Source of the DNA: Dielma fastidiosa
GTDB lineage: Bacteria > Bacillota_I > Bacilli_A > Erysipelotrichales > Erysipelotrichaceae
Reading direction: 5' to 3'
DNA length: 64,000 nucleotides
Assembly (NCBI RefSeq): GCF_000313565.1
Contig: NZ_HE578931.1
Span: forward strand, 1-64,000
The first letter of the stretch is position 1. Each line of letters starts with the position of its first letter. A model generated the notes under the pieces. That model was not told the DNA's origin, did not search any database, and saw nothing but the letters and a program-made list of their open reading frames with translations. The position numbers and the translations under genes are program-made. Shown one piece after another: positions 1 to 15,691 of the stretch.

Positions 1-3000
1 CCGTCCGTGTGAACTGATCCGCATAGATGAACTGAACGCTCTGCATTTCATTCAGGTTCAGCTTCAATGAACCGCTGTGAGTCAGAGTATCCGGAGTCCA
101 TTCCAGAATGAATGGCTGATCATAATCGATCTGAACAAGGGCTGGAACGGTAAACACATAGCATTCCCGTTCGATATCCCATTGTCCTTCCAGACTGTTT
201 TCTCCCTGTTTCAGTTTGATGCTTGTCAGCTCAGGGCCGGTATCTACCTTCACCGTGTAGCTTACAATATGACCATTTTTACCGGAAAGCATATACACAA
301 CCTGACCTGTACTAAAATCAACTTGCGTCTTCCCACTTATCTGTACCTGATTCTGTGCAGTTACTGCTATTTCATTACTAACTGTGAAAATAGGCGTTAT
401 CTTTGTTAAATTCACTGTCTCAGGCAACATAATTGAAATTTCATATGATTCATCATTAATGATGCCAAGATAATCATTATCACCATCTATAATTTTAAAC
501 TCAGTAATTCTGGCATCTTCTTCAGGAACACTTTCATTTAATGCCCAAACTGTATAAGTTGTAACATTTTCAACATTTTTTGAATCAATAATGCTGTATG
601 TAAGTGAGTTTGTAAAGTTATTAACCGTTTCCTTACTTATTTGAATAACATCTCCGACTCTCACTTCCGCATCGTTTACTTCAGTTCCTTTCTGACTTAA
701 ACTGAATTCAGCTATCAGTGATGCTTTGCTAACAAAAGTTGGCAGTAAAACAGTTATCGTATGATTATCATTATCAATATTTCCTATATAAGTATTATTA
801 TTTTTATCTGTGAGTATAAACTTTTCCATTAATATTGGTGTAGGAATTTGCTTGCTGACATTGACCATAAAGACTTTATATTTACTTGGATCTGTTTCTG
901 ACATAACAGTAATCATTGCGATTCCTTCACTTATGCCGCTGACTTTACCAGTATTGTCAACAACTGCAACTTTCTCATTGCTTGAAGTAAACCTCAGTTT
1001 ATCAGCCTCTATTGCTGATTGATCCAACGGGTCTGTTTCAAGCGTACAGTTAATTTGTGTTTCTTCACCAATTTCAATATTGCTCTTTACAATTTCTGCA
1101 TCCAAAGTAATAACAGAAACATTGCGGATTTCAACATGAATGCTGTCTTCACCAATACCTTTTACTGCTTTTACATTTATTGCTGCATTGCCACTGCGTT
1201 TTGCAGTCAATACAACACCTGCTTCATGCTGTTGTATTGTAAGCAGATCGGATGGTACGCTTGTCCAGTTTAGATATGGATTACCGAGTCCGTTTACTTC
1301 AAGTTCAGTATTTAAAGTTGCTTGATCTTTACCTTCTATTAGATAAAGTATTATTGATTTATTATTATCTTCATCAACAAGTACTGAATCACCCTTAATA
1401 TTAATTGCTGTAACTTCTTGGACAGCTTTTAATACTTTTACAAGACAAATGCTTTCAATCGTTTTTATACCATCTATGCCATCTCCGCTGATGTCAGCTT
1501 TTACTTTTAACGTAAAATCTTCATCGCTATCAATAACACCCGCTTTCAGTTGTATTTTTGACTGATCCACAGTATCAGTTGTAAACCTTAATTTATCTCC
1601 ATCATAACTATTACCCTTTGAATCATACAAAGACCATGTATATTGCACATTTTGTCCTTCTGTAATCAATGGATGCAGCTGAACTTGCAAGTTTCCACTC
1701 ATGCCGCTTTCCAATTGTATGTTTTCTTGGCTTAAATTAAGTTCATATTCCGGAATATTTAAAACATTAACTACAATTGTTTTAGTAACAGAACTTGAAG
1801 AATCTACAGGTCTTATAGTGATAACCGCTAAGCCCTGTGCTAATGCGCTTATTATTCCATCTTCATCAATAGTAGCCACTGCTTCATTATCACTTATCAA
1901 GCTTAAAGTTGGATTAGATGCTGCTGAATCTGCTGCTGCAACTATTTTCTTAGCTGAGCCAGCATATAACTCGAGTCTTGATCCTATATCATTACCCTCT
2001 TCATCTCTGACTGTAATATCAGTGACGGGTGTTTTTGCTTCTGCACTCACCTTAATATTAACAAAAGCATTCACACCATTAATGTTAAGAATTATCAGAG
2101 CTGTACCTGCTTTATCAAATGTATTGACTACCGCTTTTAATGGATCATTTTGATTTTGAGTAACAGTCGCAATTGTTTCATCAGTGCTTGACCAAGTAAA
2201 GGTTAAATCATTTATATCGCCAGTATAAACAGCTGTAGCATTCAGTACCTGACTTTTTCTAAAGCTTAGTTCTGTGGAAGATGGTGAAATTTCTAATGAT
2301 TTAACAAGACCATTTGGTTCCTTTACTGTAACTGCAAACGTTGCTTTTACGGCTGAAGCTATATCTTGATCTAATTCATCATCATGAATAATAATTGTAT
2401 GATTGCTGATCGCATGTAAATTTGCAGTGCCAGCTGATACTGCAGTAACTATACCCGTTACTTGATCTACCTTTAAAACTGCTTCATTATCACTTTGCCA
2501 TCTTATTTCTGTATTTAATGGAGTAATTTCATTATGAGAAGTATCATAAAACTTAACCTTACCCAAAGCTATCTCACCCATAGTAAGAGTCTCTGGAATG
2601 TTGATTACTTCAATTTCAGTTACTGCCACTGGCTCAGGAACTTCTTGTATTGTCTCTAGCACAGAAATTGTTATTGTATCACTAATACCATTGGCTGCTA
2701 TTACTTGAACTTCTGCTGTACCTACAGCTACAGCTGTAATTTTGCCTGTATCATCTATCTTTATAATATTATCACGGATAATTTCATTGCCATCACCGTC
2801 AGTTGTACTGATAATTTCTTGATTATTTGAATCAAACTCTCTGATCACCTGCCAAGTAAGTTTACCCGTCATTGCATCTAAAGGAGTAGGCATTACGCTT
2901 AATTGTATGCTGCTAGTTGTACTGCTGTTTTTTACTAAAACTTTCCCGCCTACAATCTTAAGTGAAGTTAATGTCCCTTTCTTCACAGTTACATTTAATT

Positions 3001-6000
3001 CATTACTTATAATTGAACTATCTGCCTTTGCCTTTGCCCTCAAACGGTAAGTTTCAGAATTACCGTTTAGCAATTTTTTTGCTTGTAAGGTATATCCTGA
3101 ACTTGTTTTAACAATCTCGACACCATCACTCTCACTTAATTCCTTAAATTTTGTTAAAGACTGATCATATATTTCCCAGATCAATTCTGTGTTTGAAGTA
3201 TTATCAGGAAGAACCTTTACTGGTAATAATGCACTGTATCCTTCTATTAATTCTATGGAGGATTGTGCAATTTGTACTGATTCAATTTTAATTTCTGAAA
3301 TTAAAATTACACATTGTGCTTCTTTACCATTAATAGATGCTGTAACAATCACACTTTCACCTGGCACAACACCTGATACTGGCTTAATTCTGATTTTTGT
3401 CAAATCGCCGCCAATAGTTTCATAAGTCACAATTCCTGTTTTGCTAAGCTTCCACTGAACTTCTTTATTCTGAAGATCGCTTGGTAGAATACTGGCATTT
3501 AATTCAACACCTGTCGTGTCTTTAGAACCTAAAGTTATTACTTTTTTATCAAGTGTTATGTTCTGAGCGCTGGCATCCTTAGTCGATATAATAATTTCTG
3601 AAACTACATCGGAACCATCACATGCAGCAGCTGTTATTTTGACATTTCCGCCTTTTTTTATAACTTTGATTCTGCCGATGGAAGCTTCTTCTTCCATGAT
3701 TCTGACACTATCTGGGTCTGAACTAGTCCAACGTAAGATTTTATTACTAGCATCTTTTCCATCAACCCCAATCACTTCTGCAGTTATCAATGCTTCGTTG
3801 CCAGGTTCCAATGAAGTTTCTGGACCATGTAATAAAATGCTTTCTACTAGTACTTCATCCAGGACTACCCTGATAACACATTCAGCATAAACACCGTTTT
3901 TCTCTGCTTTTAATATTGTGCTACCGCTTTTTAAAGCTGTTAATGTGACTTGATTACCATTTTCTTCTATTGATAAAATTGAAGAATTACTAAGCGTCCA
4001 AGTTGGATTCTCAAGCTGACTGCCTGCATTTCCGCTTGCTGTTACCTCTATCTGTTCACCCTTCACCAATAATACTTCACTTTGATCTAATATTATTTGT
4101 GTCAAATCTGCTGATGTAGAGGTAACGGTACATGTTTTCTTAATTCTTTCATCAGCAGTACTGATTGCTGTTATAACTGCTGTTCCTGCCTTTAAAGCAG
4201 TCATTAAACCTGCTTCATTAATTGCTATGATAGATGGATCACTGCTTTCCCACTTTATACGCTGATCAGTAGCTTTTAAACGGACCCCATTAATTGTTTC
4301 TCCCCAGACGACTGCACTCAGTTCTTTACTTTGGCCCGCTATTAAAGATGATGTTTCTGCTAAACTAATCAATTTCGGCTCAATGTAGGCTATTGTTCCT
4401 GAAAGCTGGGCAGTACAATGAATACCTTGCGCATTAACAGCCATAGATTCTGCGGTTATAATAATTTGTTTTCCTGCTGTAGCTTCATTTCCTACCTTAA
4501 TGTATACCATTCCTTCAATATACTCATCATTGCTTATTGTCTGTCCTGAAGCATTTAGGAAAGTTACGCTTGTATCATTACTTGACCATTTAACCTTTTG
4601 TGAAACTCTGTCTGAAGGGTCTACAATCGCCTTAATTTGTGCATTATCCGTTCCTGGTTTTAAAATAAGTGCTGATTTACTAAAAGATATACTTTGAGCT
4701 GTTGGCTCTTCGATATGAATTTTTTGCTTATATTCAATATCTTTATTATTTTCACCTTTAATTTTAACTGTGAGAATAACATCACCTGAACTAAGTGCTT
4801 TGAAGCTTCCCGTGGCTGTAATTTCTGCATGTACATCTTCATCTTCAGCATCAGCATTATTTAACGACCATAGAAATTCGCTAGCTGAAACCGTAGCATT
4901 TCCCGGTTCATATATTGCTGATAATTGCAGCTGATCTTTAGCGGTGACAGCCATACCTTCAATGGCACTGCCATCTTCTTTTATACCCTTAAGGATTGCG
5001 CCAGCTGCTGTACGGATACCATTTATTTCTGTAACATAAATCTTTTTATCTGTAACCTGTACTTCAATGATTAAAGGATCTGCTTGATAGCCGCTTAGTT
5101 CATTTATTTCGGGTGTTACAGTAATAATTGTTTCACCAATTTTCCCCTTAAATGTCAGTTTGCCTGATGAATCAACTGTTGCTATACTTTCATCACTAGA
5201 AGTGAAGTGCAAACCACGATTCGTTGTTGATTCTGGTTCAAATCCAATATTCAATTGAAGACTAGACATTCCAACATTAACGCTAATTTGATTTCCTTCA
5301 TTAGCGTATATCTTTTCTGGATATATTTCGATAATATCGATATCTGCCTCTGCTTTAATTGAACCATCTTCTTTACTAGTTGCAGTTACCTTAACTTTAC
5401 CTGGTTTAAGTGCTGTTAAATAACCGTTTTCATCTATAACCGCTAATGGATCTGATACAGTATCCAGATTTTGAACCGACCAAACTACGCTAGGATTCGC
5501 AGCAGATAATGGTGTTGGTTCTGCCTTTAGTTTTAATGTTGTACCCTTGCCAAGTGAATAAAAATTATCTATTGGTAATGGTTTTCCTGTATCACGATCA
5601 ATAATTTCTAAACTCTCAACTTTTGTCCATTCAATCATGATCCAAACGGTATCCATTATTTCATTGCCTAATGGTGAAGTAACTGTAATTTGTGCTGTAT
5701 CACCTAATTTAGCCTGTTGACTTATCTTAACAATTGGCTTATTATCCAAATCCTTATCGATTATAAATATAGATGGCATAGAACTAGTATAAATAAGTTC
5801 AGCTTCTTCTTCACTAACTGAAGCCGGTTCTATTTTTGTATGAAGTTCAACAGATTTACCGATCTCACCGCTTAAGAAAGTTTTACCTTCAGGTAATATG
5901 ATTTGCAGATTATCAATTGTGGCTTCTATGACATGAATTTCAAATTGTGTTTTAATTCCGCTGCCATCTAATGCCTCTGCTGTTACAACATAATAAACAT

Positions 6001-9000
6001 CAAATGCTGTATCTACAATTGTTACCTTACCATTTTGATCAATAAGGGCTCCATTTGTTTCAACTAATTCATCATTCACTTTTTTCTGAATTGACCACCT
6101 TATATCCTTAATTGTCGCATCGTCATTCATCTTAGCTTCTAGTATTTGCTCAGTATGACTTAGATCCATAACATGGCTGCCTATTATCTTTAGTTCGGTA
6201 ACCGGATTATTAACTATGAAATCGATACTTGCTACAACTTTAGATTCAGACTCAGCAGTAATTGTTGCCTGTCCATGCCTTAATGCATAAATTTCAATAT
6301 GTTTGTTATTTTCTGAATCCTCAATAATACTCAAGACTTCAGGATTGCTGCTAATCCACGTTAGCTGTTCATCAATAGGCTGCATTTCTGCAGTTATTGT
6401 ACGATTGTCATTAACGCATAATTCAGTATCCTTGTCTTCACCTTCAATCATTAAAATGATGCTTGTAGTTACTGCTTCTACCTTAACCTTGCACACAGCA
6501 ATCTGACCGTCTTTGGACATAGCTTTTATGATAGTAGTGCCTGGTGTTTTACCCGTAATTTTCCCTGATTGATCGACTGCTGCGATAGTTGTATTTTCTG
6601 ATTCCCAATATAAATCAGTACCCATACTTATTGGATTCACTCTTGCAGATAACGATGTCGTTTCTCCGCTCTTCATAGTTATTGAATTTTGATTCAGCGT
6701 CACTGTTGACGGATCACCTAACTCAGGATAAAGACCATTTAGACGCCATGTGCGATAAGTAATACCATCAAGTTCGGGGAGTTCTTTTATACCTTCATTT
6801 AATTGCCGTACAACTGATGAAGGATCAGATATTGGAGCTGTTGCTTGTGCAAAGTCTGCATGAATTTCATCCTTTCTATCTGTTGACTCTACCTCTGCCC
6901 CATTTATAGTTCCATTAAAAAATACATTTTCTTGTCTGAAAACACCTGGAGAAGTGTGTTCAACCACAGTCCAATAACTTCCATAGGTTGGATAAGTATA
7001 ATCAAAGTGTGCAAATACATTTTTATTGAGAATATAGTCACTGCGGCTAGTAGCAATTCGTCCGATTATTGAACCAATATATGCCGAAATATTAGTTTGT
7101 ATGGTGATATCTGTATAACAGTTAAATAAATTTTGTGATGTAGAATGGAAACTTTCATTAGCAATTAATCCACTAATCATTGCTGTTGCGGAACCACCTG
7201 CATTCACTACATTGATTTTGCCAGTTACCGATGAATTTACAATAAGTCGTAAAGCATCTGGTACATTTGAAGCTAAACCTGAAATTTGCTTTACTCCGCT
7301 GGAATGAGTGCGATAGTTAATTATCATATTATTGACGTCTACATTAATAATCGTTGATCCTTCATTCATTCCACATCCTGCAATTAATACTGCAGTTTGA
7401 TTATTAACGGCTACTGAATCGTCGATATCTAATAATGGATTATTTATACTAATGTTGCGGAACTCAACCGCCTCACCTACTCCTGTTACTATTGCAATAT
7501 TATTCGCTTTTGTCGTGCTTCCTCTAATTATTGGGGATTCAAAGGTTAAATCATGAATTACAGAATTTTTCATTCTACCAAATAATCCAACTAATCTATA
7601 TTCAAGATTTGAAATCAAAAAGTTATTGATCGTTTTTCCATTACCATTGAAATTACCGCCAAAATAATAATCAGAATCATAAGCGATAGGTGTCCAATTT
7701 CGACCGCCAAAATCTAAATCATTATCTAAAATAACTTCAATACCATCATAGTGATTTAAATTTGCATTAACCTGATTAGCAATATAAGCAAGCTGAGATG
7801 GTCTTTGGATATGAATTACATTTTCAACAGGTGTTACCATTTCTACTGAGCCATCCCATGCGTCTGAGATATTTTTATCCTTTATTTGAATAATTACTTC
7901 ATCATAAATTTCTGGATTAATTGATGATGATGCTCTGACTGTGACAGTACCGCTGTTATCTCCTGTTAATAAAGTACCTTTAGAAGATATTGAAGCATTT
8001 GTATTTTCATCATTAATTAAACTCCAATTCAGTAATGAAGCATCAGCATCACCCGGTTTTAGATAAGCATTTACTTTTTCTATACTGTTCACATAAACAG
8101 TATCCAAAGCTTCAAGCTGAATCTCACTAATATCTAAAGGTTTAGGTGTTACCATCAAAAGGCAGGTAGATTTAGGATATCGATTATCTGATGGTGTCAT
8201 TGTTATCACGGCGGCAAATGTAGGCACCGCAGTGTCCTTAACTTTTACTAACCCGTTATTATCAACCGTGACATCAGGGTGACTGCTCGTGTATGTAACT
8301 TTGACATCCTGAGCTGTAAAAGGTACAATCACTTTTTCTAATTGCAATGTTTCACCTGGTACAACCACTTTAGAGGTTGGATTCACAGTAATACTTGTGA
8401 TATTAGGACTAGCAAAACCTGGAGGTTCATTACCTGAGGTATACCATGAATTATAGTTGTATTTATTATCCATCTTAATGATATGTCCATTTAACAAATT
8501 AACAAGCGAATCTGTTATCTTATCTGAAGCAATTATTTTATCATCAGCTATTTCTATTGCACCCGTTAAATCTTCAACTGGGGTTAGCTTACCAAAATGT
8601 TCACTATGAATATAAACATTATCACACGTTACTCTTGATGTATTTCTTACAATCGGATCAAAAGTTAATGGTTCCGAAAAATCAGTATCAATATCGAAAT
8701 ACGAATTACTTATTTCTACTAGTGTTGAACCCATATTAGTATTAGAGTAAAAACCACCTGTAATAAAAGAAGCTGAACCTTTGCTGTTATCAATAGTGAT
8801 TTTTCCGGTTAATGCAACATTATATGTAATACCGTCTGGCATTACAATATGCGGAGAAATACCAGAGATTTGTTTTATTCCCCGATTGTTTGTTACATAT
8901 TTAAGATCAATATTTTTAGCATCTATATTTATTAGTGTAAAACCATAGCCAGCATGTCCAAAAAGGAATGCTGCAGTACTATTTCCTTCTCGATAATCAT

Positions 9001-12000
9001 CAATCATTAACTTACCATTACTAATAACGACATCACTGACTGAAAAAGTATCGATTGATCCACATAATAAGCCCATGTATGTAGCTGAATTTAAAGTAAG
9101 CTGAATATCAATTACAGGATTGATAAATTTAAAGTTTTTTATCACAACTGGATTATCAGCCGATCCAAACGCATTACCAAATAAACCTAAATCTTGCTGT
9201 GCAAATATTTTGTCATTAATCAGCATATTACTTATTGTTTTTCCATTACCATTAAATGTGCCTCTAAATGGATTGTATTGATTACCAATTGGTATCCAAT
9301 TGTGGCCGCCAAGATTTATATCATTCATCAATAGGATTTCTTTATTTTTAAAGCCTTGATATAAACCAGCATTTGTTTGATCAGCAACCCAAGCTAATTC
9401 GCTCGGCTTTGTAATATAATACCTTACTCCATCATTATCTGGTTCTTCAATACTGCCATCCCATATGTTTCCTGAATGAATAGTAATCAGCTTTTCTACA
9501 ATGATGCCACCTGCTTCTGCACGAACAGTAATTGCTCCTGCCTTATAGGCAGTAAGCAGACCTGAAGAGCTTACTGAAGCAATCTCACTCACAGTTTTAA
9601 CACTCCATCTTACATTTTGCTCTGCTGATGTTGGTAATACTACAGCTTTCAGCTGAACTGTATCGCCTGCTTTTATCAACCCAGAATCCTGGATAATAAT
9701 TGATTCTGCAGCAGTTTCATCAGGAAGTACAATAATTTCAGCCTGATCACTTGAAATCATCTGATTATTTTCAAATGCCTGCATTTCAATAACGGCACCT
9801 TGATGGGCAATTGCATTTCCACTGATTGACACTAAACCGTTATCATTAACACTGATTGAATCGCTGCCACTGATTTTAGAAAACTTTATATCGATGTTTT
9901 TACCAGCTATAAAAGGTATTAACTGGGTTTCAAGCTGTGCTGTTTCATTCTTATGAAGCTGAAGATAAGTATCTTTCAACACTACTTTATATGTATCACT
10001 GTCAGAAAAATAAGGAGAACTGCCTTCCTGATTGCTCCATGATAATGCTGGATAATTAGATACTGATGGTTTACCTAAATTCAGTTGATTAACCAATGCA
10101 TTTTCAATGCTGCAGTCCGCTCTAAATAATTCACTGTTTAATTTTGTTGTCTTGTTACCCAGCGTTGTATCATTGATTACAGTATCTTGTCCGCTTCCAA
10201 ACGCACGCATGTTTTCTTTACTGATTCTGCCGTTTGCATCATTGAAAACAGCATCGAGATGCCAATATACATTCGTTATTTCTGTATAAAACACCGAAGA
10301 AGTGGAAGCATAACCTCCAATTGCACCTGGTGGATTACTATTAAATACATTAGTTAGTGAATTATCTGCATATACATTATTCAAAGCAATATAAGAATTG
10401 ATAGATCCTATCAAACCACCTACATATATTGGTTTAGACGGATTTGTAATTTCTTTATTTTCAATTCTCATTGATGAATAAGAATTATAAATTTTAAATG
10501 CAGTTTCTGCTGTAGAAGGAAGTGAAGCATTATCTGATCCCACTATAATACCGACAAGTCCTCCTAAATTTACAGTTGAAGCATTATTGATTAATGTTAC
10601 TGTTCCCTCCGTGTATGAGTTAATTATCATGCCATTATATGCAATAGCTTTACCGATTAATCCGCCTGCAGTTGAAGCCTTGGCTGATAAATTTTGCGTC
10701 GTACTATTAGCAATAATGGTATTGTATTGAGCATAGCCAATTAACCCGCCAGTTAGTCCTTCAGATACTATGGCAGCATTTTTTGAACTAGTATTGGTAA
10801 TAATAGAATCCTGTGCTTGACCTGCCAATGCTCCAGCAAAACTATCAGAAGTACCATTGATGATTACTGAATTATTTAATGTTAGATTGCTGATGGATGC
10901 ATTATTCAGCCAGCCAAACAAACCATATAGTGTACTATCATGATCACTATACTTGGAGCCATCAATGTAAAGATTACTAATTGTATTTCCTTGACCATCG
11001 AAGTTTCCTGCGAAATAAGTACCCGGCTGCGAGCCTATCGGTATCCAGCTTATGTTATTGTTGCCATTTAAATCAATATTTTTATCTAAAACAATTGATT
11101 GATTCTCAAAGGTATTGCCTTTGTTTGTACTATCAGCTATCCATTTCAATTCACTAGCTGTTCTAATATGATACACGCCAGATATTAATTCTGGCTGTTT
11201 GCTGGAGATTCCATCCCATACTGTATCTTCAATATTAATCAAATAATCATCACGGATCAAAGTACCTTCAGCAATAGCTACAACTTTAACTTTGCCATGT
11301 CCCTTGGCTAGAAGCAGGCCGGTCATCTCATTAATTTCAGCTATTTGATTTTCACTGACAAGCTCTTCTTTGCCATCAGGATTATTATCTATATACCATC
11401 TTATATTGGATCGATCAGCATAAGTTGGATGCGCAGTAACAGTTAAAAGTTTTGAATTACCTGTTAGCAATTCTCCTGGGTAATTGATTTTTATTTTATC
11501 TGCTGAATCATCACTAATAACTATAAGCTTTACTGTTTCACTAATTGAACCGCATGTAACAATTAACTGAGCTGTCGTTCCAACTGCTGCATGATTGCCA
11601 TTTATAATACCATTATTTACTGTAATTCCTGTAGTATTATCACTGCCATCATCATTTTTAATAACCCATGAGATGCTGTCTGTTCGAAACGCATCATATG
11701 GGAACAGCGATGTCTTAATTTCGTTTTCTTTACTGCTATGCAAATAATATACATAACTTCCATCTTCTGCCTTATATACAGGATATAAATCTATTCCTGT
11801 AACCGGATCAATCGCAAAATCAGCAAAAGCTGATATATGATATTGCCAATCTTTCAAGATGTAATCAGGATACTTCTTACGATTTTCATTTAGATTATTT
11901 ACCATCATTGTAGATTGCAAGTCACTCGTATTACTACCTGGTATATCAATATTCACATTACTTTTATCACCAAGACCTATAGCTTTTTGGTTTTCAATTG

Positions 12001-13132
12001 AGATCGTAGCATCGCCATTAACCCACCCATTATCGCTGCGCTGCCAAAAAACACTTAATCTTGAACCAATAGTAATCGATGAATCAGAATCTATTTGCCC
12101 AATCAAGCCGCCTAAATTAGACTTAGATGCAGCTGCTATGTCACCAATTGCATATACGTTATCCAAGGTTGAAGAAGGCAAATAAGTATCATTGGGCAAT
12201 TTAACTGCTCGACCAATTAATAACCCTAAATTATATGTAAAATTTTCTTCATTGCTTTGTATATTTGTTTGACTATAGCAATTCAAAATTTTTGAATTAT
12301 AAATGGAACCAGTTAAACCACCCGCTGCTGAATCAGCGTATTCAGTTGCCAAGCCATTATTCAATACAATAACTGCACCACTCACAAAACTATTAAGGAT
12401 TGTTGAATCTGCAACTCGACCAAATATACCGCCAATCTGATCATAACCAGAAATTGTTCCTGATACTGAAATACTAGAAACAATTGTATTATCAGCTTGT
12501 GCAATTAAACCAGCTGTTGTTGAATTAGCTGAGCTGCTTATTGCTTTATTTGTTACTGATGCATTTTTAACACAAAGGTTTTCAATGCGGCTATTTTTTG
12601 AATATGCTGCTATAACTGCAGCAGATACAGCATCATCACTTACTTTTTTATCAATGAATATCTCTGGCTCAATAATTTTGAAATCCTTTATAATTGCTGA
12701 ATCAATGTATCCAAATAATGAGGCTAATTGTGTATTGGCCTTTTTTCCACTGGACATTAAACCATGGATGTTCTTACCTGCACCATCAAATATACCTTTA
12801 AAAGGGATATCTGCAGTTCCTATGGGCATCCATTCCTGCCCATTTAAATTTATATCATCTTCCAGCAATATCGTTTTGCCTTCGAAACTGATACCCTCAC
12901 GTGTCTGTTGAGCAACCCATGCAAGCTCCTCGCCAGTATAAATATGATATGTATTTCCATCATTTTTTGGCGGTGTTGCACTTATGGTTCCGCTCCACTT
13001 CTCTTCTGCGCTGGCTGTTACTTCCGTTGCCTTTACTTCCTGTATGCCTATTTCTGGTATATAAGCTGATAAGCTCACTGCCATACATAGAGCCATTCCA
13101 TATTTAAGCGCTTTCATCATTCCCTTTAACAT
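1..13132 (-). CDS. Giant secreted Ig-like/GLUG-repeat surface protein (3' end off window)
   Basis: One open frame runs without a stop in the stretches I translated from the ATG at 13132 to the left edge, giving ~4,377 residues with the C-terminus missing. The start has a good RBS (aaaggag, 9 nt upstream). Residues ~1-30 form a signal peptide (basic MLKGMMKALK, then a hydrophobic stretch). Four modules follow, at about residues 45, 637, 1222 and 1756. Each opens with W(D/S)G...(Y/I)HI..(E/Q)LAWVA.Q, continues with DI(N/D)LNG..W.PIG and FDG.GK.I, and carries GLUG-like GGLIG repeats. Big_2-type Ig-like domains (NG.(V/L)TA.K.G...(I/V)TA) link the modules and then run in tandem from ~residue 2144 to ~4075. 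The last ~300 residues in the window resemble DUF5018-like units (ITPIFTVSN...VDFSTGQVVYML). It is probably an adhesin or cell-surface stalk. The anchor type (LPXTG or other) cannot be seen. Confidence 0.9.
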   Translation of the reverse strand, partial: MLKGMMKALKYGMALCMAVSLSAYIPEIGIQEVKATEVTASAEEKWSGTISATPPKNDGNTYHIYTGEELAWVAQQTREGISFEGKTILLEDDINLNGQEWMPIGTADIPFKGIFDGAGKNIHGLMSSGKKANTQLASLFGYIDSAIIKDFKIIEPEIFIDKKVSDDAVSAAVIAAYSKNSRIENLCVKNASVTNKAISSSANSTTAGLIAQADNTIVSSISVSGTISGYDQIGGIFGRVADSTILNSFVSGAVIVLNNGLATEYADSAAGGLTGSIYNSKILNCYSQTNIQSNEENFTYNLGLLIGRAVKLPNDTYLPSSTLDNVYAIGDIAAASKSNLGGLIGQIDSDSSITIGSRLSVFWQRSDNGWVNGDATISIENQKAIGLGDKSNVNIDIPGSNTSDLQSTMMVNNLNENRKKYPDYILKDWQYHISAFADFAIDPVTGIDLYPVYKAEDGSYVYYLHSSKENEIKTSLFPYDAFRTDSISWVIKNDDGSDNTTGITVNNGIINGNHAAVGTTAQLIVTCGSISETVKLIVISDDSADKIKINYPGELLTGNSKLLTVTAHPTYADRSNIRWYIDNNPDGKEELVSENQIAEINEMTGLLLAKGHGKVKVVAIAEGTLIRDDYLINIEDTVWDGISSKQPELISGVYHIRTASELKWIADSTNKGNTFENQSIVLDKNIDLNGNNNISWIPIGSQPGTYFAGNFDGQGNTISNLYIDGSKYSDHDSTLYGLFGWLNNASISNLTLNNSVIINGTSDSFAGALAGQAQDSIITNTSSKNAAIVSEGLTGGLIGYAQYNTIIANSTTQNLSAKASTAGGLIGKAIAYNGMIINSYTEGTVTLINNASTVNLGGLVGIIVGSDNASLPSTAETAFKIYNSYSSMRIENKEITNPSKPIYVGGLIGSINSYIALNNVYADNSLTNVFNSNPPGAIGGYASTSSVFYTEITNVYWHLDAVFNDANGRISKENMRAFGSGQDTVINDTTLGNKTTKLNSELFRADCSIENALVNQLNLGKPSVSNYPALSWSNQEGSSPYFSDSDTYKVVLKDTYLQLHKNETAQLETQLIPFIAGKNIDIKFSKISGSDSISVNDNGLVSISGNAIAHQGAVIEMQAFENNQMISSDQAEIIVLPDETAAESIIIQDSGLIKAGDTVQLKAVVLPTSAEQNVRWSVKTVSEIASVSSSGLLTAYKAGAITVRAEAGGIIVEKLITIHSGNIWDGSIEEPDNDGVRYYITKPSELAWVADQTNAGLYQGFKNKEILLMNDINLGGHNWIPIGNQYNPFRGTFNGNGKTISNMLINDKIFAQQDLGLFGNAFGSADNPVVIKNFKFINPVIDIQLTLNSATYMGLLCGSIDTFSVSDVVISNGKLMIDDYREGNSTAAFLFGHAGYGFTLINIDAKNIDLKYVTNNRGIKQISGISPHIVMPDGITYNVALTGKITIDNSKGSASFITGGFYSNTNMGSTLVEISNSYFDIDTDFSEPLTFDPIVRNTSRVTCDNVYIHSEHFGKLTPVEDLTGAIEIADDKIIASDKITDSLVNLLNGHIIKMDNKYNYNSWYTSGNEPPGFASPNITSITVNPTSKVVVPGETLQLEKVIVPFTAQDVKVTYTSSHPDVTVDNNGLVKVKDTAVPTFAAVITMTPSDNRYPKSTCLLMVTPKPLDISEIQLEALDTVYVNSIEKVNAYLKPGDADASLLNWSLINDENTNASISSKGTLLTGDNSGTVTVRASSSINPEIYDEVIIQIKDKNISDAWDGSVEMVTPVENVIHIQRPSQLAYIANQVNANLNHYDGIEVILDNDLDFGGRNWTPIAYDSDYYFGGNFNGNGKTINNFLISNLEYRLVGLFGRMKNSVIHDLTFESPIIRGSTTKANNIAIVTGVGEAVEFRNISINNPLLDIDDSVAVNNQTAVLIAGCGMNEGSTIINVDVNNMIINYRTHSSGVKQISGLASNVPDALRLIVNSSVTGKINVVNAGGSATAMISGLIANESFHSTSQNLFNCYTDITIQTNISAYIGSIIGRIATSRSDYILNKNVFAHFDYTYPTYGSYWTVVEHTSPGVFRQENVFFNGTINGAEVESTDRKDEIHADFAQATAPISDPSSVVRQLNEGIKELPELDGITYRTWRLNGLYPELGDPSTVTLNQNSITMKSGETTSLSARVNPISMGTDLYWESENTTIAAVDQSGKITGKTPGTTIIKAMSKDGQIAVCKVKVEAVTTSIILMIEGEDKDTELCVNDNRTITAEMQPIDEQLTWISSNPEVLSIIEDSENNKHIEIYALRHGQATITAESESKVVASIDFIVNNPVTELKIIGSHVMDLSHTEQILEAKMNDDATIKDIRWSIQKKVNDELVETNGALIDQNGKVTIVDTAFDVYYVVTAEALDGSGIKTQFEIHVIEATIDNLQIILPEGKTFLSGEIGKSVELHTKIEPASVSEEEAELIYTSSMPSIFIIDKDLDNKPIVKISQQAKLGDTAQITVTSPLGNEIMDTVWIMIEWTKVESLEIIDRDTGKPLPIDNFYSLGKGTTLKLKAEPTPLSAANPSVVWSVQNLDTVSDPLAVIDENGYLTALKPGKVKVTATSKEDGSIKAEADIDIIEIYPEKIYANEGNQISVNVGMSSLQLNIGFEPESTTNRGLHFTSSDESIATVDSSGKLTFKGKIGETIITVTPEINELSGYQADPLIIEVQVTDKKIYVTEINGIRTAAGAILKGIKEDGSAIEGMAVTAKDQLQLSAIYEPGNATVSASEFLWSLNNADAEDEDVHAEITATGSFKALSSGDVILTVKIKGENNKDIEYKQKIHIEEPTAQSISFSKSALILKPGTDNAQIKAIVDPSDRVSQKVKWSSNDTSVTFLNASGQTISNDEYIEGMVYIKVGNEATAGKQIIITAESMAVNAQGIHCTAQLSGTIAYIEPKLISLAETSSLIAGQSKELSAVVWGETINGVRLKATDQRIKWESSDPSIIAINEAGLMTALKAGTAVITAISTADERIKKTCTVTSTSADLTQIILDQSEVLLVKGEQIEVTASGNAGSQLENPTWTLSNSSILSIEENGNQVTLTALKSGSTILKAEKNGVYAECVIRVVLDEVLVESILLHGPETSLEPGNEALITAEVIGVDGKDASNKILRWTSSDPDSVRIMEEEASIGRIKVIKKGGNVKITAAACDGSDVVSEIIISTKDASAQNITLDKKVITLGSKDTTGVELNASILPSDLQNKEVQWKLSKTGIVTYETIGGDLTKIRIKPVSGVVPGESVIVTASINGKEAQCVILISEIKIESVQIAQSSIELIEGYSALLPVKVLPDNTSNTELIWEIYDQSLTKFKELSESDGVEIVKTSSGYTLQAKKLLNGNSETYRLRAKAKADSSIISNELNVTVKKGTLTSLKIVGGKVLVKNSSTTSSIQLSVMPTPLDAMTGKLTWQVIREFDSNNQEIISTTDGDGNEIIRDNIIKIDDTGKITAVAVGTAEVQVIAANGISDTITISVLETIQEVPEPVAVTEIEVINIPETLTMGEIALGKVKFYDTSHNEITPLNTEIRWQSDNEAVLKVDQVTGIVTAVSAGTANLHAISNHTIIIHDDELDQDIASAVKATFAVTVKEPNGLVKSLEISPSSTELSFRKSQVLNATAVYTGDINDLTFTWSSTDETIATVTQNQNDPLKAVVNTFDKAGTALIILNINGVNAFVNIKVSAEAKTPVTDITVRDEEGNDIGSRLELYAGSAKKIVAAADSAASNPTLSLISDNEAVATIDEDGIISALAQGLAVITIRPVDSSSSVTKTIVVNVLNIPEYELNLSQENIQLESGMSGNLQVQLHPLITEGQNVQYTWSLYDSKGNSYDGDKLRFTTDTVDQSKIQLKAGVIDSDEDFTLKVKADISGDGIDGIKTIESICLVKVLKAVQEVTAINIKGDSVLVDEDNNKSIILYLIEGKDQATLNTELEVNGLGNPYLNWTSVPSDLLTIQQHEAGVVLTAKRSGNAAINVKAVKGIGEDSIHVEIRNVSVITLDAEIVKSNIEIGEETQINCTLETDPLDQSAIEADKLRFTSSNEKVAVVDNTGKVSGISEGIAMITVMSETDPSKYKVFMVNVSKQIPTPILMEKFILTDKNNNTYIGNIDNDNHTITVLLPTFVSKASLIAEFSLSQKGTEVNDAEVRVGDVIQISKETVNNFTNSLTYSIIDSKNVENVTTYTVWALNESVPEEDARITEFKIIDGDNDYLGIINDESYEISIMLPETVNLTKITPIFTVSNEIAVTAQNQVQISGKTQVDFSTGQVVYMLSGKNGHIVSYTVKVDTGPELTSIKLKQGENSLEGQWDIERECYVFTVPALVQIDYDQPFILEWTPDTLTHSGSLKLNLNEMQSVQFIYADQFTRT

Positions 13133-13202
13133 CTCTCTCTTCTCCTTTCTCGCCTTTTTCTTTCTTGTTTCTTTTGTGCCATATTTCCCTTCCTCTTTCC
13201 TC

Positions 13203-13231
13203 ACAAAAAATCTGAACCGTCTAATGTTCAG
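13203..13231 (-). terminator. Weak intrinsic terminator between the SARP-like gene and the giant surface gene
   Basis: Read on the minus strand, the stem ctgaac/gttcag (8-nt loop) is followed by attttttg. It starts seven bases after the stop codon of the small regulator and ~70 bp before the giant gene. The six-pair stem is short, so it could act as partial read-through control. I see no convincing separate promoter for the giant gene in the remaining ~70 bp. Confidence 0.55.
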
Positions 13232-13237
13232 CTATTT

Positions 13238-13672
13238 TTACTTATTACTTCGGCTTTGTCTTTCCTCAATCCTTCTGCGGGTTGACTCTGCCCATTCATA
13301 GCCATACATATAATCATCTTTGTATGGATAGGCTTCTGTGTTTCCTTTTATAAATTCATAATAATCACAGGTTATGCGATTGCGATTGATCTTCACTACC
13401 CCATAACCTACATCAAATAGATCATCAATTCCTTCTGCGTTAAAAGCGTCTCTTAACAGACGCAGCGTATACCTGAAGGATCGTTTAAGACTCACATCAT
13501 TGATACGGTTCTTCCATAATGTAGTGATGATGTCCTTGTTGCTTACAAAGTCTCCTTCATTATCGATGAGATAGGCCAAGAGTTCTTTTGCTTTAAGGTT
13601 CTTAAAAAGCAAAGGCTGACCGTCGATAAAAACAGCGAAACGACCAAAGGTTTCGATATAAATAGATTTCAT
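13238..13672 (-). CDS. Small SARP-type winged-helix transcriptional regulator
   Basis: A 144-residue protein. Residues ~1-90 look like an OmpR/PhoB-type winged helix as found in SARP regulators: FGRFAVFIDGQPLLF wing strands, KAKELLAYLIDNEG, then SLKRSFRYTLRLLRDAF as the recognition region. The end (YMYGYEWAESTRRRIEER) resembles the start of a bacterial transcriptional activator (BTAD) domain, but the protein stops there, so there is neither a full BTAD nor a receiver domain. I chose the ATG at 13672 because aaggggtg lies 5 nt upstream; the in-frame GTG at 13693 falls inside a palindromic operator-like site. It lies just upstream of, and in the same direction as, the giant surface gene, so control of that gene and of itself is a reasonable inference. 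Confidence 0.75.
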   Translation of the reverse strand: MKSIYIETFGRFAVFIDGQPLLFKNLKAKELLAYLIDNEGDFVSNKDIITTLWKNRINDVSLKRSFRYTLRLLRDAFNAEGIDDLFDVGYGVVKINRNRITCDYYEFIKGNTEAYPYKDDYMYGYEWAESTRRRIEERQSRSNK

Positions 13673-13692: not shown

Positions 13693-13722
13693 CCGTCTCA
13701 AAATGTATACTTTATAAGACAG
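13693..13722. repeat. Palindromic site A (imperfect copy) upstream of the SARP-like gene
   Basis: This 30-bp imperfect palindrome centred on gtatac matches site B (13817-13846) at 26 of 30 positions in either orientation. It sits 21 bp upstream of the regulator's ATG and overlaps a plausible minus-strand -10 (tataaagtatac). This fits an operator for a dimeric regulator, probably autoregulatory; a recombination site is the alternative. Confidence 0.7.
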
Positions 13723-13774
13723 CCAGAAAACGACCATAAAATGAGTAAAAAAGATGATAAAACGCAAAAATATG

Positions 13775-13803
13775 TTTACAAATGACAAAAAACGACCTAT
13801 AAT
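13775..13803 (+). promoter_or_regulatory. Strong sigma-A promoter pointing away from the SARP-like gene
   Basis: TTTACA (13775-13780) and TATAAT (13798-13803) are separated by exactly 17 bp. A start near 13810 would fall just before palindrome B. No ORF with a ribosome binding site follows on the plus strand. Transcription would meet the bidirectional terminator at ~14000, so the product would be a ~190-nt RNA. Confidence 0.6.
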
Positions 13804-13815
13804 GAGCATAAACGC

Positions 13816-13847
13816 ACTGTCTCATAAAGTATACTTTATGAGACAGT
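13816..13847. repeat. Perfect 32-bp palindrome (site B)
   Basis: The half-site actgtctcataaagta is followed directly by its exact reverse complement, with no loop. It resembles site A 94 bp away and lies immediately downstream of the plus-strand promoter, where a bound protein could block elongation. A loopless perfect palindrome of this length is more typical of a protein-binding or recombination site than of an RNA hairpin. Confidence 0.8.
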
Positions 13848-14020
13848 TCTCATATTGTTCCAATGTTTGCATGATCGAACATGCATTTATAAAAAATAAA
13901 TGGTGTATCTATTTAATTAAGAATGATGAAAATTTAACCAAACACAATAAAAAAAGACTATCTCTCATTGTCTGATTACGACAACTAAAGATAGTCTCAA
14001 TTTTTGTATCCTTCTATGAA
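13848..14020 (+). ncRNA. Possible small RNA, about 13810-14000, with no convincing ORF
   Basis: The region 13694-14020 holds no gene I would defend. A plus-strand transcript from the 13775-13803 promoter would contain palindrome B, a small perfect stem (tgcatg/catgca, 13868-13885) and then the bidirectional terminator. The 73-codon plus-strand frame starting at 13754 begins upstream of the promoter and has no RBS. The RNA is inferred only from the promoter and terminator. Confidence 0.3.
13950..14002. terminator. Bidirectional intrinsic terminator after fhs
   Basis: The arms agactatct (13955-13963) and agatagtct (13989-13997) pair, with an inner ttgtc/gacaa stem in the loop. There is a T-run on both sides (ttttttt on the minus strand, attttt on the plus strand). 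It ends the purD-purB-fhs transcript and would also stop the outward plus-strand transcript. Confidence 0.8.
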
Positions 14021-15691
14021 TTAGAACAAGCCAACAATATGGCCATCCTCATCAATATCCATATCCAATGCCGCTGGATGTTTTGGCAGACCCGGCATCG
14101 TCATCACATTACCGGTTAAAGCGACAATGAAGCCCGCTCCAATTGATGGACGCAGCTCGCGAACCGTGATTCTAAAGCCCTTAGGCGCTCCGTAAATCTT
14201 CGCGTTATCAGTCAGCGATGTCTGACATTTAGCCATACAAATTGGTGTTTTATTCCAACCCAGCTCATTATAAATTTTAATCTGTTCAGCCGCCTCTTCA
14301 GTAAAATCAACACCATCAGCACCATAAACACACTTTGCAATGCGTTCAATCTTCGCCTCAATGGATTCATTTACATCATACAGCGGTGCAAATTCATTTT
14401 CTTGTTCACAGATGCCCACAAGCTGTTGCGCCAGATCCAGTGCACCCTCGCCGCCTTTAGCCCAAACTTGAGATAATGACATAGGATGCCCCTGTTCGCG
14501 GCACCATGCCTGCAGTGCCTCAACTTCTGCCTGTGTATCTGTCGCAAATTCATTGATCGCAACAATATACGGAAGCTTAAACTGTTTCACTGTATCAATA
14601 TGCTTCGCTAGATTCGCACAGCCATCAAGCATCGCCTGTACATTTTCTTCTTTCAAATTCTCAAATTCAATACCGCCATGCTGCTTCAATGCACGAATCG
14701 TTGCGACAATAACAACCGCGCTTGGTTTCAGATTACCAAACCTGCATTTGATATCCAAGAACTTCTCGGCCCCTAAATCAGCACCGAATCCTGCCTCTGT
14801 CACAACATAATCACCCAGCTTTAATGCCAGCTTTGTCGCTAAGATCGAATTGCAGCCATGAGCAATATTCGCAAAAGGACCGCCATGGACAATCGCCGGA
14901 TTGTTTTCCAGCGTCTGCACCAGATTAGGCTTGATGGCATCCTTCATAATCATTGCCAGTGCGCCCTCAATCTTCAGATCCTTTACAAAAACCGGTTTCC
15001 CTTCTAAATTATATCCAATCAGCATATTAGACAGCCGCTCTTTTAAATCCATTAAAGAAGTAGACAGACATAAAACCGCCATTACTTCTGAAGCAACCGT
15101 AATATTGAAACCATCTTTGCGCTCAACACCGTTGGCCTTTGGTCCCAAGCCTACCTCGATTTGACGCAGCGTACGATCATTCATATCCAGACAGCGTTTC
15201 CATGTAATCCGCTCAATATCCAGATTCAGCTCATTCCCTTGATGGATATGATTATCAATACATGCACTGATCAGATTATTCGCCGTTGTGATTGCATGCA
15301 TATCGCCGGTAAAATGAAGATTCAAATCCTCCATTGGCACTACCTGAGCATAACCGCCGCCGGCCGCACCGCCCTTTAAACCAAACACGGGTCCCAAAGA
15401 AGGTTCACGAAGAGCAATTACTGTTTTCTTACCTAACCGATTCAAGCCATCACCCAAGCCTACCGTTGTCGTTGACTTACCTTCGCCAGCCTTTGTCGGA
15501 TTAATTGCCGTTACCAAAATCAGCTTTCCGTCTTTTTTATCCTGATTCTTTTTTAATAAATCAAGATTTAACTTTGCTTTATATTTACCATAATACTCCA
15601 GATCATCTTCCTCAATACCAATCTTCTCTGCAACCTTATCAATCTTCAGCAGCTTTGCTTCCTGAGCAATTTCCAAATCTGTCTTGTACAT
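14021..15691 (-). CDS. fhs: Formate--tetrahydrofolate ligase
   Basis: A 556-residue protein of normal family length. It makes 10-formyl-THF from formate, THF and ATP. Visible features are the P-loop region [18 protein letters not shown], then [27 protein letters not shown] and [13 protein letters not shown], all typical of FTHFS. It is the last gene of a purD-purB-fhs run, 23 bp behind purB, with a purine-rich RBS (agaggcg). Its product supplies the one-carbon units used by PurN and PurH, whose genes are in the second pur cluster ~17 kb away, so the placement makes metabolic sense. In acetogens the same enzyme works in the Wood-Ljungdahl path, but no other gene of that path is here. Confidence 0.97.

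Follow-up and report, generated by a model that had tools for sequence, protein, structure and literature searches.

A predicted invertible promoter beside a giant surface-protein gene of Dielma fastidiosa, one of 16 cassettes of common design

In a 64,000-nucleotide stretch of the Dielma fastidiosa genome (contig NZ_HE578931.1; hereafter the window), two palindromes enclose a promoter that points away from a regulator gene and a giant surface-protein gene (Table 1), raising the question of whether they are operators for a DNA-binding protein or the ends of a segment that inverts. A first-pass annotation offered both readings and leaned against inversion; offering it was sound, and the evidence gathered here favours it over the operators. 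We consider it very likely that the window cassette is an invertible promoter, whose inversion would take place in living cells.

Twin palindromes and the promoter at the window locus

Site B had been annotated as a perfect loopless palindrome, and its arms (13816-13831 and 13832-13847) are indeed 16 nt each and 100% complementary. No other perfect palindrome in the window comes close to it in length, the runner-up having 8-nt arms, and about 3e-5 perfect 32-nt palindromes would be expected in the window by composition. The annotated 26/30 match of Site A to Site B held up as well, with four differences from the 30-nt consensus, as did the promoter between them, which faces away from both the regulator gene and the giant gene: TTTACA (from 13775) and TATAAT (ending at 13803), 17 nt apart, match at 11/12 positions and point through Site B. 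A promoter thus sits between two inverted repeats, the arrangement of an inverton. Promoter-like matches are no commoner in the window than in shuffled sequence; the promoter call takes its weight from recurrence in all cassettes described below, not from the single match.

Table 1. Features of the window cassette and its surroundings (positions in the window)
Feature	Positions	Strand	Remarks
Site A, gene-side inversion site (predicted)	13693..13722		28-bp core 13694-13721, centre GTATAC; 4 mismatches to 30-nt consensus
Site B, distal inversion site (predicted)	13816..13847		perfect palindrome; 28-bp core 13818-13845
Segment predicted to invert	13708..13831		124 bp, centre of A to centre of B
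Promoter TTTACA-17-TATAAT	13775..13803	+	OFF in the assembly, facing away from regulator and giant gene
Hairpin flanked by T-runs, probable bidirectional terminator	13955..13997		would stop the outward transcript and the transcript of the convergent gene 14021-15691
144-aa winged-helix-like regulator	13241..13672	-	predicted first gene driven when ON
Giant surface protein	2..13204	-	4401 aa inside the window and continuing beyond it; contains Big_2 Ig-like and GLUG repeats; predicted as second target

The label "SARP-like" given earlier to the 144-residue regulator is loose, its match to Pfam Trans_reg_C being weak (E 5.5e-4, under the gathering score). Copies of the regulator occur elsewhere in the genome, one identical on C12 and one with 62% identity on C6. 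The C12 locus (L026 7784-20000, G000:C12) carries the identical regulator copy (100%) and a second copy of the beginning of the giant gene, with a cassette of its own (98%); we take the genes beside it to be AbiEi/AbiEii-type, judging from their sequence.

Under the inversion reading, a small serine recombinase would use Sites A and B for recombination, one dimer binding at each 28-bp palindrome. The two dimers would come together over a very short DNA loop, and cutting at the GTATAC centre would be followed by religation of the segment in the inverted state. As assembled, the promoter would fire outward through Site B into the terminator, leaving the regulator and giant surface-protein genes OFF; inversion would turn it toward both genes, with expression switched ON. 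With AT at the core, the sites lack polarity, and deletion would therefore be expected alongside inversion.

Cassettes of the same design across the genome

The first-pass annotation had proposed a genome search for further copies of the 30-bp site, and we ran it over the whole 3.6-Mb genome with a degenerate 28-nt pattern, allowing up to 3 mismatches. The search returned 30 sites, and the reversed-pattern control returned 0. The sites formed 14 complete pairs plus two single sites adjoining masked stretches, giving 16 cassettes and no isolated site; the same site is thus found at many scattered loci, as for a master invertase of the Mpi type. Site spacings in the complete cassettes were 114 (n=3), 124 (n=5), 125 (n=5), and 135 bp (n=1), stepping by about one helical turn.

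One promoter rule, run on both strands of the 14 complete cassettes, called 11 OFF, one ON (C5:188889), and two without a clear target; C9:128024 and C5:212342 have no gene start on the gene-like side. The two half-masked cassettes look OFF, judged by eye. The sole ON cassette among the complete ones lies upstream of a gene for an 852-aa choline-binding-type protein. In 13 of the 14 complete cassettes, C5:188889 included, the inner half-site beside the -10 element reads TGTCTCA or TGTATCA. C5:212342 departs from the near/far half-site rule. The gene-side outer half of C5:188889 is identical to that of three OFF cassettes (TGTCTTAAAAGG), and its inner halves occupy unchanged positions with respect to the promoter. 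The inner half-sites of C5:188889 thus moved with the promoter, the signature expected of exchange at the site centre (GTATAC).

These results bear on the operator reading, in which a dimeric repressor bound to both palindromes would loop the DNA and silence the enclosed promoter with no recombination. The palindromes do flank the promoter, Site B lies just downstream of the -10 element, and the spacings of 114, 124-125, and 135 bp are the whole-turn distances that looping needs. However, C5:188889 is inverted with its half-sites exchanged, and the genome holds zero lone sites. The neighbouring 144-residue regulator is disfavoured as the shared binding protein, since its homologues lie at only 3 places in the genome versus 16 cassettes; an unlinked regulator may instead bind the paired sites. 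Similar pairs after serine-recombinase genes in many genera, and an inverted middle between genera (both described below), also argue against operators, which we regard as very improbable. We give equally little credence to the idea that the cassettes are dispersed promoter repeats that formerly inverted and are now static: 11/12 assigned complete cassettes share one orientation, as frozen repeats would, but the sites are kept in 16 cassettes, the candidate recombinase gene is uninterrupted, and one copy is ON.

The genes beside the cassettes encode the regulator and Ig-repeat giants, choline-binding-type proteins, a GGDEF-EAL protein, a LytTR regulator, and a DivIVA-like protein with its operon. 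In Clostridioides difficile, c-di-GMP phosphodiesterases are likewise described as phase-varied (PMC9286219, in excerpt). The 16 cassettes of one design would form one phase-variation regulon, mainly of cell-surface proteins with a few regulators.

A terminator search of the 14 complete D. fastidiosa cassettes gave a match on one strand in C5:102923 and C5:212342. An Rfam search of 12 cassette loci found two tRNAs and nothing else, and therefore no known RNA switch. Four loci (L028, L030, L035, and L036) share on the gene-like side a common leader with a stem ending in TCCGCC and no Rfam match; a second hairpin with a T-run follows it in L028, L030, and L035, and no gene start lies behind it in L030 and L036.

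A candidate recombinase and the site pairs beside its relatives

The genome encodes 10 proteins matching PF00589 (tyrosine-type recombinases) and five matching PF00239 (resolvase-type), among the latter a 217-aa serine recombinase, L115, from an uninterrupted gene (G000:C6:331203-331853). It has a resolvase domain (PF00239, E 7e-30) and S11, presumably the catalytic serine, which is invariant in 14 sequences; L115 thus has the make-up of an Mpi-type small serine recombinase. The solved structures closest to it are the Sin/Tn552, gamma-delta, and Tn3 resolvases and DNA invertases of the Gin/Hin type. Resolvases use accessory sites. Hin uses a Fis-bound enhancer (PMC3798978, in excerpt). We found no palindrome adjoining the L115 gene in its own genome. 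The absence of a nearby recombinase had been held against inversion at the window locus, an objection that fails because Mpi of Bacteroides fragilis acts at a distance (PMC4747536 and PMC5903667, in excerpt). L115 is a likely candidate for the enzyme acting on the cassettes, predicted to do so in trans, and the 16 switches are probably all run by a single DNA-inverting enzyme.

Among 145 genomes of the host's family, its own included, 12 carry the site at up to 2 mismatches, several of these matches being weak and probably due to chance. One genome of the set, G077, is 100% identical to Holdemania massiliensis over the compared stretches, which points to Erysipelotrichaceae, where Holdemania is placed, as the family. 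L115-like genes are present in 10/12 site-positive versus 30/133 site-negative genomes (p 4e-5, only a guide given kinship among the genomes), and they adjoin matching sites. Inversion by another enzyme, a tyrosine recombinase (e.g. L092 or L088) or a large serine recombinase, would be compatible with an invertible promoter and draws on the several such genes in the genome and on comparable C. difficile switches run by the tyrosine recombinase RecV (PMC5903667, in excerpt). This variant seems rather unlikely beside the distribution of L115-like genes: L092-like genes occur in 4/12 site-positive versus 32/133 site-negative family genomes, and none reaches the threshold among the matches listed for the site-positive genome G006.

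To collect L115 relatives, we used a search profile built from 14 sequences, obtaining 80 named loci, 71 of them followed by 500 bp of sequence. Within 500 bp past the recombinase stop codon, 37/71 loci had an inverted pair (AAAGTNNACTTT-like) matching at 20/26 or better, compared with 4/79 before the recombinase gene and 1/65 and 1/73 in control windows further off (Mann-Whitney p 6.6e-16). A few of these 37 pairs have centres other than GTNNAC. When the same 80 loci were instead selected for GTNNAC-like centres at 18/26 or better, 37 pairs were again obtained; here the next ORF is co-directional with the recombinase in 34/36 cases (one locus has no next ORF), and several next ORFs start with a signal-peptide-like sequence or resemble flagellins in sequence. 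Pairs with symmetric GTATAC centres adjoin the L115 relatives L197, L230, and L251, which removes the earlier objection that a symmetric centre speaks against inversion. At L230 and L251, the GTATAC pairs lie directly before flagellin-like genes. At two contig ends of another genome, G002 (L069 1501-1528 and L079 1501-1528), a recombinase gene whose start resembles that of L115 is preceded, at a distance of about 60-70 bp, by a perfect GTATAC palindrome.

Of 32 family-genome loci submitted to a shuffle test, 22 could be evaluated, and only 4 of these had a significant pair after the recombinase gene, one of the four pairs being probably a terminator; this result counts against the proposed reading. 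A terminator as the general content of the 37 recombinase-adjacent segments was rejected, having been found in 4/37; a simple promoter regex matched in 2/37.

The spacings of the 37 GTNNAC pairs are best described by a period of 10.30 bp (R 0.66; range scanned 8-14 bp; p 0.002), and the period stays near 10.3-10.4 bp across relatives. Phasing persisted when the recombinases were thinned to below 75% or below 70% identity (p 0.012; n=21 and n=14), and thinning to below 65% left seven pairs and no support (p 1.0). The window's family contains off-phase pairs (e.g. 86, 105, and 106-108 bp), and the helix rule is therefore only a tendency there.

Related switches occur in other genomes. G006 has a 125-bp promoter cassette similar in its distal flank to C1:187518, and both are OFF. 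At another locus, L172 (G006) and L179 (G042) align on the plus strand in their flanks and on the minus strand in the middle (E 4.9e-10); L168 and L179 likewise differ by an inverted middle between collinear flanks. In L172 a hairpin with a T-run points toward the gene, in L179 away from it, suggesting that this locus is an invertible terminator like the one proposed for cwpV (PMC2784873, in excerpt). Related site pairs enclosing a hairpin and T-run are seen in L172 (1920-2060), L179 (1988-2130), L168 (2010-2135), and L167 (2026-2150). OFF and ON states are thus seen in different copies within one genome, and an inverted middle is seen between genera in the terminator-type switch, the comparison being one of copies and of genera. 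A pattern scan of contigs for promoter plus site, from which records close to the D. fastidiosa genome may be missing, gave 0 matches.

We see an even chance that small serine invertases of one family, widespread in Clostridia and Erysipelotrichaceae, operate minimal switches, mostly of about 94-177 bp, whose two palindromic sites have to face each other on the helix, and that in D. fastidiosa this family has been turned into a master switch acting at 16 or more loci on symmetric sites free of polarity; loop geometry, rather than the core sequence, would then set the direction. The literature searched, part of it at the level of abstract openings, gave no description of the L115 recombinase family, and the word "serine" is absent from the excerpt of PMC11892184.

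Relation to known phase-variation systems

Mpi of B. fragilis, a serine recombinase, inverts 13 regions, and the likeness lies in one serine-type enzyme with many scattered invertible promoters and surface targets (PMC4747536 and PMC5903667, in excerpt). B. fragilis belongs to another phylum and uses another promoter type; in design, the D. fastidiosa cassettes differ in their symmetric GTATAC sites, their helix-step spacing, and their targets, among them giant Ig-like proteins and regulators. The RecV switches of C. difficile (cwpV, flagellar) likewise serve surface-protein phase variation in a low-GC Gram-positive bacterium, but RecV is a tyrosine recombinase (PMC5903667, in excerpt). The cwpV switch has an invertible segment of 195 bp, and a terminator has been proposed to act in its OFF transcript, a type that the terminator switches of G006, G042, and G049 resemble (PMC2784873, in excerpt); the window cassette, unlike this type, carries the promoter itself.

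The polarity-free sites raise the question of how deletion is avoided, and the helix-locked spacing offers a clean test of serine-recombinase site pairing on loops of about 100 bp. If the proposed reading is true, genes for choline-binding-type wall proteins, Ig-repeat giants, a GGDEF-EAL protein, and a LytTR regulator are predicted to switch together, and a low-GC Gram-positive bacterium would have its own equivalent of the Mpi system known from B. fragilis, with its probable enzyme named.
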